Shown: one piece after another, positions 1,081 to 35,416 of the stretch | How the letters are laid out: each line of letters starts with the position of its first letter | How positions within the stretch are numbered: position 1 is the first letter of the stretch | Origin: a virus | Reading direction: 5' to 3' (one strand) | Virus record (IMG/VR): IMGVR_UViG_3300042387_000260 | Coordinates: 1-40,276 of that record | Length of the DNA: 40,276 bases | Made by a program: the position numbers and the translations under genes | Notes under the pieces: model-generated | What the model was told of the DNA's origin: nothing | Databases searched by the model: none | Seen by the model: only the letters and a program-made list of their open reading frames with translations

Positions 1081-1500
1081 ATGGCAACTACTACTATTTT
1101 AAGACAAGACGAAAATTCGGCAGTTGTTACTATTTCCGGGGCGGGGATAGAGACTCTTGCGTTTGTTTTACACCCAGGCGGCGCAACAGGTCCGATCGGA
1201 GCCACTGGTTTTGCTGGATCAACCGGAGTTGCTATTGTATCTGTAGACAAACTTGACTGGTCTATTACAGGAACTAATAAGATCTCATTACATTTTAATG
1301 GATCTACAGATCAATTAATTGGTCACTATAGTGGAAATGGTGGAATCAATTATAGTAAAGATTATCAATCTAAGATTACTAATGTTGCTGCTGGGGCAGA
1401 TTCGACTATCCTATTAACTTCTACAACAACTGATCCGTACACTCTTGTTATGAAATTAGAAAAAACATCCGGATTCGTTAAAGTCGGACAATATAGCTAA
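1081..1500 (+). CDS. small structural protein with collagen-like segment
   Basis: A 139-residue protein. Residues about 33-49 are a Gly-x-x collagen-like stretch (GGATGPIGATGFAGSTG), followed by a beta-rich, Thr/Ser/Gly-rich C-terminus with few charges (ADSTILLTSTTTDPYTL). This build is common in phage virion decoration and fibre proteins, so a surface-exposed head or fibre-like role is likely but not proven. The ribosome site is a modest AAGG 8 nt before the ATG. Its TAA shares a base with the ATG of the next gene (TAATG), implying coupled translation within the head operon. Confidence 0.75.
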   Translation: MATTTILRQDENSAVVTISGAGIETLAFVLHPGGATGPIGATGFAGSTGVAIVSVDKLDWSITGTNKISLHFNGSTDQLIGHYSGNGGINYSKDYQSKITNVAAGADSTILLTSTTTDPYTLVMKLEKTSGFVKVGQYS

Positions 1501-3749: not shown

Positions 3750-5009
3750 ATGTCTAATCTACAGAACAAATGGAAGGCTATTCTGGAGCACCCAGAAGTC
3801 GCCCCAATCAAAGACGCTTACAAGAAGCAAGTTACTGCGGTTCTATTAGAGAACCAAGAAAAGGCTCAAGCTGAATCAAGAAAGCTAATCACCGAATCTG
3901 GTGTTCCTGCTAACGTTGCTGGCAACGTTGATAAGTTTGACCCAATTCTAATTGCTCTAGTCCGTAGATCCATGCCAAACCTAATGGCTTATGATATCTG
4001 TGGTGTTCAGCCAATGAACATGCCAACAGGTCTAATCTTCGCCATGAAGTCAAAGTATGGTTCTGGCGCAACTGGTCCTCTATCTTCAACCGAAGCACTA
4101 TTCAACGAAGCCGATACCGACTTCGCAGGAACTGGTACTCACCAAGATAATATCTTCAGAACCGCTTCTGATACATTATCTACATTCGGTACTGGTATGA
4201 CCACAGCATCAGGCGAAGGTTTCTCCCCACTAAACATGGGCTTCTCTATCGAGAAGGTAACCGTAACAGCCCAAACTCGTGCGTTAAAGGCAGAATACTC
4301 TCTAGAATTGGCACAAGACCTAAAGGCTATGCACAATCTAGATGCAGAATCTGAGCTCTCAAACATTCTTTCAACCGAAATTATGGCTGAAATTAACCGT
4401 GAAGTTATCAGAACCCTATACAAGATTGCGAAGTCTGGTGCAAGCTCTGGTACAACAACAGCTGGTTACTTCGACCTAGATACCGACTCTGACGGTCGTT
4501 GGTCAGTTGAGCGCTTCAAGGGTCTAATGTTCCATGCTGAAAGAGAAGCGAACCAAATTGCGAGAGCAACACGTAGAGGAAAGGGTAATATCATTATCTG
4601 CTCTTCAGACGTTGCTTCTGCTCTAGCAATGGCTGGCAAGCTAGATTATACTCCTGCTCTATCAACCGACCTAAACGTTGACGACACTGGTAATACATTT
4701 GCTGGTATTCTAAACGGTAAGTACAAGGTCTATGTTGATCCATACTTCTCGGTTGGCGCTGGCGTAACATTCTCTGACGTTATGGTTGTTGGATACAAGG
4801 GATCCAATGCTTATGACGCAGGTCTATTCTATTGCCCATACGTACCACTACAAATGGTTCGTGCAACTGATCCAGATACATTCCAGCCAAAAATAGGTTT
4901 CAAGACCCGCTACGGTATGGTCGCAAACCCACTATCTGGCGACGGAATCACTCTAGGTGCAGCATCCAACGATTATTATAGACTCGTAAAGATTAAGAAC
5001 ATCTTATAG
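3750..5009 (+). CDS. 23: major capsid protein gp23
   Basis: A 419-residue HK97-fold capsid protein. FDPILIALVRRSMPNLMAYD followed by GVQPMNMPTGLIFAMKSKYG is the hallmark region of T4-type gp23. The gp21 cleavage site is probably LITE-SGVPAN, after Glu49, which would remove a helical N-terminal propeptide (T4 gp23 is cut after residue 65). It is about 100 residues shorter than T4 gp23. AAGGAG lies 6 nt before ATG. Base use differs from the neighbours: Leu is mostly CTA, and Asn, Asp and Phe favour C-ending codons, as expected for a very highly expressed gene. A strong terminator follows. Confidence 0.96.
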   Translation: MSNLQNKWKAILEHPEVAPIKDAYKKQVTAVLLENQEKAQAESRKLITESGVPANVAGNVDKFDPILIALVRRSMPNLMAYDICGVQPMNMPTGLIFAMKSKYGSGATGPLSSTEALFNEADTDFAGTGTHQDNIFRTASDTLSTFGTGMTTASGEGFSPLNMGFSIEKVTVTAQTRALKAEYSLELAQDLKAMHNLDAESELSNILSTEIMAEINREVIRTLYKIAKSGASSGTTTAGYFDLDTDSDGRWSVERFKGLMFHAEREANQIARATRRGKGNIIICSSDVASALAMAGKLDYTPALSTDLNVDDTGNTFAGILNGKYKVYVDPYFSVGAGVTFSDVMVVGYKGSNAYDAGLFYCPYVPLQMVRATDPDTFQPKIGFKTRYGMVANPLSGDGITLGAASNDYYRLVKIKNIL

Positions 5010-13043: not shown

Positions 13044-13259
13044 TCAAGAACCAGACCCAGACCTAGACTCAGACCTAGACCCAGACCAAGACCCAGTCCA
13101 AGACATATACCCAGACCCAGAACAAGACCCAGACCTAGACTCAGACCTAGACCCAGACCAAGACCCAGTCCAAGACATATACCCAGACCCAGACCAAGAC
13201 CAAGACCTAGACTCAGTCCTGGACCATACATTTCTTTTGTAGATAGATTTCTTAATCAT
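13044..13259 (-). CDS. small protein with 24-residue Ser/Gly/Trp/Arg tandem repeats
   Basis: A 71-residue protein: basic start MIKKSIYKRNVWSRTESRSW, then two copies of a 24-residue repeat (with SESRSGS, GYMSWTGSWSGSR) encoded by a 72-bp DNA repeat. The start resembles those of the genes at 8912 and 12311, which is why I prefer this frame to the Leu-Gly frame on the same strand. Trp, Tyr, Ser, Gly and Arg dominate, a composition seen in phase-separating or RNA-binding tails; that role is inference. It heads a run of five genes into rIIA and rIIB. Confidence 0.6.
   Translation of the reverse strand: MIKKSIYKRNVWSRTESRSWSWSGSGYMSWTGSWSGSRSESRSGSCSGSGYMSWTGSWSGSRSESRSGSGS
13061..13204. repeat. 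two tandem 72-bp repeats
   Basis: Unit 13061-13132 recurs at 13133-13204; the first 60 nt are identical and differences cluster at the end. Each unit is itself built of hexamer-like steps (AGACCC / AGACCT). The period of 72 nt keeps frame (24 codons), and the array should be prone to copy-number change. Confidence 0.9.
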
Positions 13260-31800: not shown

Positions 31801-31824
31801 AAAAAACCTCACTTGCGTGAGGTT
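31801..31824 (-). terminator. rho-independent terminator of the tmRNA
   Basis: On the minus strand, an 8-bp stem (AACCTCAC / GTGAGGTT) with a GCAA loop, followed by TTTTTT. It ends the tmRNA transcript just before the Clp ATPase gene. Confidence 0.88.
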
Positions 31825-31879: not shown

Positions 31880-31912
31880 CTAGGCAGACATGGACATTGC
31901 TTTTGCATTGCC
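31880..31912 (-). other. predicted tmRNA tag reading frame
   Basis: In the tmRNA, ATAAAC precedes GGC much as ATAGTC precedes the resume codon in E. coli. Starting at GGC (31912) the frame encodes GNAKAMSMSA and stops at TAG (31882-31880), ten codons as in E. coli. With the charged Ala, the predicted tag is A-GNAKAMSMSA. It ends in Ser-Ala rather than Ala-Ala. The exact resume codon is inferred. Confidence 0.55.
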
Positions 31913-32096
31913 GTTTATAGTTTATGCTGTTACGGGAGTCATCTTCCGACTGAGTTCCCTGTTCCTAGTTCATCCTGTCGAATCTGTTTCACCCCCATCA
32001 AAAAAACACTCTTAACGAATGTACTTTTGGTGGAGGTGGTGGGCTCTGCCTCCCACGTCCAAGAAGCTTTCAGTCTAGATCATCACTCAATATCGA

Positions 32097-32104
32097 TATT
32101 TATA
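32097..32104 (-). promoter_or_regulatory. late promoter TATAAATA before the tmRNA
   Basis: Exact late box on the minus strand (TATTTATA on the plus strand), placed so that transcription would start about 30 nt before the T-arm of the acceptor piece. It suggests late expression of the tmRNA. Confidence 0.65.
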
Positions 32105-32108
32105 GTGA

Positions 32109-32371
32109 GTATACGGTTGAATCCAAAATCGTGGCTTGCGATTTCTAGGATATTTTTATTGTGGACCTTATCCCACACAATTAGCCGGAGAAACAACCAT
32201 ATACCCACTATTCTTCTCTATGTCGGATTTCACCTGCACTTGGATTTTCGAAGTCCTTGCGTCCGCTCATATGCTGCCTGTTATTAAATTTCGCCTGCGC
32301 AAGCTACTATTTTCTGGGCTTTCGACGGTGCTATGTTCCTACCCAATAAGGTAGTCTATCGTGCATAGAGA
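32109..32371 (-). ncRNA. candidate structured RNA of unknown class upstream of the tmRNA
   Basis: No convincing protein is encoded here, and base composition is richer in G+C than the flanks. On the minus strand, two domains are closed by long-range helices. Domain 1: TCTCTATG (32371-32364) pairs with CATAGAGA (32222-32215), enclosing CTACC/GGTAG, CACC/GGTG (32330-32327 with 32234-32231) and CTTGCG/CGCAAG (32303-32298 with 32261-32256). Domain 2: GTATATGGTTG (32204-32194) pairs over 11 bp, one G-U, with CAACCGTATAC (32119-32109), enclosing ATTGTG/CACAAT and AAATCG/CGATTT hairpins. It might be a separate RNA or a leader of the tmRNA precursor. I could not match it to RNase P, a group I intron or a known riboswitch. 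Confidence 0.5.
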
Positions 32372-32384
32372 TAACTGTTACTAT

Positions 32385-32585
32385 TTATTGTTGATTTGAT
32401 TCTCGCAATGCAGAAATCAGTTCTTTCATCGCAGTCATTCTATTTTCCATAAGACGATCGTATCGATCACAATCTACAATCAAACCAGTTAGTGTGTCTG
32501 TTACTCGAACACCGACAGGGCATTCATTAACACCCTGTCTTGGAGTTCTATAATATTGAATTTTAAATTGAGAATTATCCATCAT
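32385..32585 (-). CDS. release-factor-like small protein lacking GGQ
   Basis: A 66-residue protein whose centre, GVRVTDTLTGLIVDCDRYDR then NRMTAMKELISAL, follows the class I release factor domain 3 (RF2: [33 protein letters not shown]). The GGQ loop that would lie before it is replaced by TPRQGVNECP, so peptidyl-tRNA hydrolysis by the normal route is not expected. Small phage proteins of this kind are known but uncharacterised. It starts 11 nt after the previous gene, without a clear ribosome site, and lies immediately upstream of the structured RNA and tmRNA, which makes a ribosome-related role attractive but unproven. Confidence 0.72.
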   Translation of the reverse strand: MMDNSQFKIQYYRTPRQGVNECPVGVRVTDTLTGLIVDCDRYDRLMENRMTAMKELISALRESNQQ

Positions 32586-35265: not shown

Positions 35266-35280
35266 ATTTTTATGAAAGAA

Positions 35281-35333
35281 TATCTCGTGTGTTTTCAATG
35301 GTTTAGCGCAAGTTGTTGAAAACAAACGAGATA
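35281..35333. repeat. intergenic hairpin element, copy 1
   Basis: TATCTCGT pairs with ACGAGATA (8 bp), then a 2x2 internal loop, then GTTTTCAA with TTGAAAAC (8 bp). The 17-nt loop contains TGGTTTAGCGCAAGTTG, repeated in copy 2. It lies between divergent promoters. Confidence 0.8.
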
Positions 35334-35347
35334 AAGATTCGAAAGAA

Positions 35348-35400
35348 TATTCCCTTTAGAATCAATAGTTTAGCGCAAGTTGTTGAAAACAAAGGGAATA
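35348..35400. repeat. intergenic hairpin element, copy 2
   Basis: TATTCCCTTT pairs perfectly with AAAGGGAATA (10 bp). The inside repeats copy 1 as CAATAGTTTAGCGCAAGTTG then TTGAAAAC, with one change. The arms differ in sequence from copy 1 but keep complementarity, so structure rather than arm sequence seems conserved. Confidence 0.8.
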
Positions 35401-35416
35401 AATATTCAGAAAATCT

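Follow-up and report, generated by a model that had tools for sequence, protein, structure and literature searches.

RNAC (139 nt) and RNAD (119 nt) of phage T4, the species 1 and 2 small stable RNAs, adjoin tRNA-Arg and segB, a homing endonuclease gene of the cluster, in the T4 genome. Both belong to the late class and have no known function (PMC9697503, PMC3014915), and no Rfam match was found for either. In a related phage, Methylophilales phage Melnitz, a structured RNA, the glutamine (glnA) riboswitch, lies beside a permuted tmRNA (PMC9004378); its RF01739 match (52.8 bits) is located 3' of the tmRNA. The promoter early stem-loops (PeSLs) of T4-type phages, as described in PMC4503421 on the basis of the original papers, are modules of a stem and a promoter that are said to mediate the shuffling of neighbouring genes.

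The window analysed here is the 40,276-bp virus record IMGVR_UViG_3300042387_000260, which is a fragment of a T4-like phage. T4-type genes for the scaffold, a gp23-like major head protein, RIIA, UvsX and a DnaB-like helicase are present, together with gp46/gp47-type genes coding for SMC-like and metallophosphoesterase proteins. By gp23, Pelagibacter phage HTVC008M (62%) is the closest named phage, followed by the Methylophilales Melnitz phages (60%). Immediately upstream of a permuted tmRNA, an RNA of ribosome rescue, the minus strand holds a real small structured RNA of about 110 nt, previously unlisted, which we call unit B.

Unit B resembles RNAC and RNAD in being a small structured RNA of a T4-like phage positioned beside a translation RNA. 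It differs from them in that its neighbour is a tmRNA, not tRNAs, and in that its expression is putative. A BLAST search at word size 7 with unit B against T4 rnaC and rnaD gave chance-level matches only (best E 0.26), and the covariance model of unit B, R1, found nothing in the T4 genome. As unit B shares setting and size with RNAC and RNAD and has no sequence or model match with them, it could at most work like them and is not a member of their group; it is best read as analogous in setting, not homologous. The Melnitz riboswitch is a different element in a different place, and RF01739 was absent from this region of the window even at E 10. The PeSL promoters are early, whereas unit B is associated with a late-type promoter and has a branched structure of about 110 nt whose inner hairpins are kept.

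The tmRNA locus and its late-type promoter

On the minus strand, the order was small genes, a 66-aa ORF, the stretch under study, TATAAATA, the permuted tmRNA, a terminator-like hairpin and a ClpA-like AAA+ gene (Table 1). The tmRNA, genuine in this phage, is the immediate neighbour of unit B, with 10 nt between the end of unit B and the tmRNA match. Unit B lies outside the tmRNA, the promoter of the latter standing in between; the beta_tmRNA model merely extends 38 nt into the end of unit B.

Table 1. Positions of the features at the tmRNA locus, in window coordinates.
Feature	Position	Strand	Remarks
Terminator-like hairpin and U-run after the tmRNA, AACCTCACGCAAGTGAGGTTTTTT	31801..31824	minus	Strongest fold of the window (z -7.7), in a window-wide folding scan at lower resolution
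Permuted two-piece tmRNA	31880..32091	minus	RF04321, 89.2 bits
TATAAATA, plausible T4-type late promoter of the tmRNA	32097..32104	minus	Octamer also found ahead of the scaffold and gp23-like genes
Unit B, structured RNA of about 110 nt	32102..32211	minus	Model R1, 132 bits
Unit B closing helix, 3' arm, 18 nt	32102..32119	minus	TATAAATA begins with its last three bases
Unit B hairpin 2, AAATCG (32144-32139) with CGATTT (32131-32126), 7-nt loop	32126..32144	minus	6/6 pairs in all copies; A-U to G-U
Unit B hairpin 1, TGGGATA (32175-32169) with TATCCTA (32152-32146), 16-nt loop	32146..32175	minus	7/7 pairs in all copies; G-U to A-U in L001
GGC, potential partner of GCC (32135-32133) in the hairpin 2 loop, which would make a pseudoknot	32184..32186	minus	Invariant
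Unit B closing helix, 5' arm, 18 nt	32194..32211	minus	Pairs uninterrupted with 32119-32102
Unit A, stretch closed by TCTCTATG/CATAGAGA	32215..32371	minus	Structure unsupported; 8-bp helix at chance level
AATAAATA, putative late-promoter-like variant before unit A	32382..32389	minus	Shares bases with the 66-aa ORF stop codon

A late promoter of the tmRNA had been placed downstream of this stretch in an earlier, sequence-only reading of the window, and our analysis agrees. The octamer TATAAATA (32104-32097) is plausibly a T4-type late promoter because it recurs unchanged before the scaffold and gp23-like major head genes. As TATAAATA begins within the 3' end of the unit B helix, it would serve the tmRNA and could not drive unit B, which must therefore derive from upstream transcription. 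The variant AATAAATA, in front of unit A, is perhaps a promoter for unit B, but octamers of this type were no commoner in the window than expected by chance. Neither strand of unit A or unit B contains a sigma-70-type site, and such sites were as numerous in the region as in shuffled sequences.

Several other observations were made along the window. The predicted tmRNA tag (31912-31880, minus strand) is GNAKAMSMSA, without the usual AA end, and the relative L005 reads ANTNVLVMSAAA. The spacer between the two tmRNA pieces was far shorter in the window than in the relatives L001 and L002, the mature parts being nearly identical. The 66-aa ORF upstream of the tmRNA (32385-32585, minus strand) showed a weak RF-1 domain match, below the Pfam cut-off and without the GGQ motif, and its relatives in L005 and L006 retain the RF-1 domain. 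The presence of a release-factor-like protein near the tmRNA and the ClpA-like gene suggests a ribosome-rescue cluster. A 72-nt tandem repeat (12-nt subrepeat, 2.5 copies, 95% matches) was located at 13047-13225 within a 234-aa minus-strand ORF. At 35274-35407, between divergent genes, two tandem units of 67 nt were 81% identical; they were also found in L002 (approximately 1162-1229, minus strand). The outer stems of these units differ and are nonetheless self-complementary (TCTCGT/ACGAGA and TTCCCT/AGGGAA), and they enclose the conserved core TTTAGCGCAAGTTGTTGAAAACAAA, with one outer-stem mismatch in the L002 copy of the second unit and no Rfam match above chance. They make a second candidate structured element.

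Structure and maintenance of unit B

The sequence-only reading had described the stretch as one candidate new structured RNA of about 260 nt, free of any convincing gene, closed by an 8-bp and an 11-bp helix and much richer in complementarity than the neighbouring DNA. Both helices are present on the minus strand: TCTCTATG (32371-32364) pairs with CATAGAGA (32222-32215), and GTATATGGTTG (32204-32194) pairs with CAACCGTATAC (32119-32109) with one G-U pair. The length of the second was understated, the 11 pairs being the core of an 18-pair helix. The stretch is not a single closed RNA; it consists of two separable units, A and B. Its folding z-score as a whole was -1.4 on the plus strand and -2.6 on the minus strand. 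The excess of complementarity belongs to unit B (-4.3 on the minus strand, -3.1 on the plus strand), and was not found in unit A (-0.9). The small ORFs of both strands lose their frame or length in relatives, as the first reading would have it, and coding on either strand was rejected.

The 18-pair stem is the longest of the window on either strand. Stems of at least 18 pairs were obtained in none of 1000 dinucleotide shuffles of a 293-nt stretch, and in 64 of 200 shuffles of the whole 40 kb at the same composition. Because such a stem is not rare across 40 kb, we relied on homologues to decide. Among the relatives, retrieved via the ClpA-like protein, only L001 and L002 carry unit B (ClpA 99-100% identical). 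Their copies are approximately 82-86% identical to that of the window, whereas the L002 flanks are 97-98% identical, and the pairing has therefore been kept through a real divergence of 14-18%.

Over the three copies, two of which are close so that they amount in effect to one or two independent comparisons, all 100 scorable cells remained paired on the minus strand in a hand-set alignment (N for missing bases). Eight pairs varied: two changed on both sides, six on one side and none was broken. The doubly changed pairs (G-C to U-A at 32208/32105, and G-C to A-U at 32204/32109) both belong to the 18-pair helix that includes GTATATGGTTG and CAACCGTATAC, and the other changes in this helix pair via G-U. 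When the partner was slid by one to three columns, 29-42% of the cells stayed paired. The column-shuffle control was weak (55 of 500). With random substitutions in the arms, all closing-helix pairs would survive with a probability of approximately 1e-3 to 2e-4; favouring transitions raises this to 1e-2 to 4e-3. Local folding z-scores of the three copies were -4.3, -3.0 and -4.7. Each copy contains three or four G-U pairs, and reading the opposite strand breaks two closing-helix pairs per copy; the G-U pairs fit the minus strand only and point to an RNA of that strand. For the inner part, TGTGG/CCACA was considered as an alternative hairpin and rejected, one of its pairs being broken in L001 when TGGGATA/TATCCTA is kept in all copies.

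The distribution of unit B appeared to be narrow. Model R1 gave one match per carrier record and found no copy in any other phage record examined, among them those of HTVC008M, Melnitz and T4. Searches against Rfam 15 (4227 families), at the gathering score and, with 751 bases, up to E 10, returned the tmRNA only, neither A nor B having a match of its own. Among 50,697 phage records, DNA searches with the whole region, unit A, unit B or unit C (the latter described below) found no real relative; the matches in Providencia phages, which lay within a holin gene in PR1 and at a comparable place in PSTCR5, were attributed to chance. Pattern scans of viral contigs for A, B and C returned the L001 and L002 contigs only. 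In prokaryote contigs, the unit A pattern was not found and a 20-nt unit B pattern gave four matches, near the chance expectation; the best R1 score there, in L042 (E 0.07), is probably also chance. No homologue of unit B outside this clade was thus found in the phage, viral-contig and prokaryote-contig sets.

Exchangeable modules in front of the tmRNA

The sequences upstream of the tmRNA differed between relatives. In L002, an extra unit of 165 nt, unit C (4426-4590), lies between unit B and the tmRNA; it has an 11-bp closing helix, several hairpins and a folding z-score of -5.25, and was seen in this relative only. In the more distant relatives L003-L007 the tmRNA is present without unit B. 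The tmRNA promoter directly follows a gene in L003 and L004, and in L005 an HNH-type gene (3988-4647; weak Pfam match), of which L006 and L007 keep a 3' remnant as the sole trace upstream of the tmRNA. From these differing contents, the slot is a hot spot of turnover for exchangeable cassettes. The A-B module, unit C and the HNH-type gene each end beside a TAAATA-type sequence, which suggests that the promoter sequence may act as the joint between modules; over the window as a whole, however, the frequency of such octamers did not exceed chance. Modules ending in this way could be swapped without removing the tmRNA promoter.

Interpretation of the locus

We propose, with a probability of roughly 0.6, that unit B, which occupies a modular slot ahead of the tmRNA promoter, is expressed from the minus strand as a small, stable and late-acting non-coding RNA of some 110 nt. 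In this model, the 18-bp helix closes a junction of two hairpins, perhaps with a loop contact. Unit B would be made as part of the minus-strand operon transcript, or start at the weak late-like site preceding unit A, and would then be cut out as a stable RNA. The presence in L002 of unit C, a further strongly folded module in this slot, favours such a reading. It may act late in infection, possibly in trans, like the late RNAC and RNAD of T4 beside the tRNA genes.

Alternatively, unit B could be a cis element that folds only in read-through RNA from the upstream genes, as an RNase III or RNase E processing site or an insulating site protecting the tmRNA, with no separate RNA being made. The upstream genes share its orientation, and in all three copies the end of unit B coincides with the tmRNA promoter. 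RNase III can in principle use a helix of 18 bp, and the length of the closing helix would be sufficient. However, the inner hairpins and internal sequences such as GATAAGGTCCACA and GCCACGATTTTGGA are conserved beyond the needs of a cleavage helix, and the tmRNA does without unit B in L003-L007. The lack of a U-run in unit B also led us to reject an intrinsic terminator. We regard the cis element as an unlikely explanation.

A lower likelihood still is assigned to an element acting as DNA, in which the dyad by the late promoter would be a recombination joint or a mobile cassette of promoter and stem, similar to a PeSL, the RNA having no function. Unit B does border both a module swap and the unit C insertion, with TAAATA at the joints, and PeSLs are reported in T4-like phages (PMC4503421). 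The G-U pairs of every copy, with one strand pairing better than the other, point instead to RNA; the inner hairpins are kept, and the promoter is of the late and not the early type.

That A and B together make one structured RNA of about 260 nt is very improbable, even though the two helices exist side by side. Unit A is at chance level: Watson-Crick stems of at least eight pairs occurred in 35% of the shuffles of the stretch, and the window contains 242 of them. The pairing of TCTCTATG with CATAGAGA is invariant in L002, where the whole of unit A is identical; this identity is uninformative, as many flanking stretches are also 100% identical. L001 goes against the pairing, having lost the 5' arm and all of unit A except its last 20 nt. 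It retains unit B, which therefore does not need unit A, and for this reason the single RNA was rejected. In addition, between the window and L002 the alleles of A and B switch at the A/B border. Of the structured RNA first proposed beside the tmRNA, unit B stands, by its compensatory changes, the retention of all its minus-strand pairs and the lack of an Rfam match; the structure of unit A is unsupported. About half of the stretch (approximately 110 bases) is an evolutionarily maintained RNA structure, and the remaining half has the appearance of chance pairing.

That the helices of A and B alike are accidental, a product of AT-rich intergenic DNA, is hardly credible: homologues are few and, over 40 kb, a stem of 18 pairs is not exceptional, but 18 pairs were never reached in local shuffles and the divergent copies have no broken pair.

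More speculatively, and in our view improbably, the slot in front of the tmRNA would be a rapidly exchanged array of structured RNAs (B, C and perhaps A) linked by late-promoter-like sequence. Such an accessory RNA island of T4-like phages would supply RNAs acting in trans late in infection, for example on ribosome rescue or against host defences.

The small stable RNAs of T4-like phages have been known chiefly from RNAC and RNAD of T4, whose function is still open. Unit B adds to them another RNA, unrelated in sequence and backed by covariation, from a comparable setting. The close relatives, which differ by a swap (B), an insertion (C) and a loss (A), provide natural variants for asking what role such an RNA plays. 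These results suggest that phage tmRNA loci are perhaps worth scanning for RNAs absent from Rfam.
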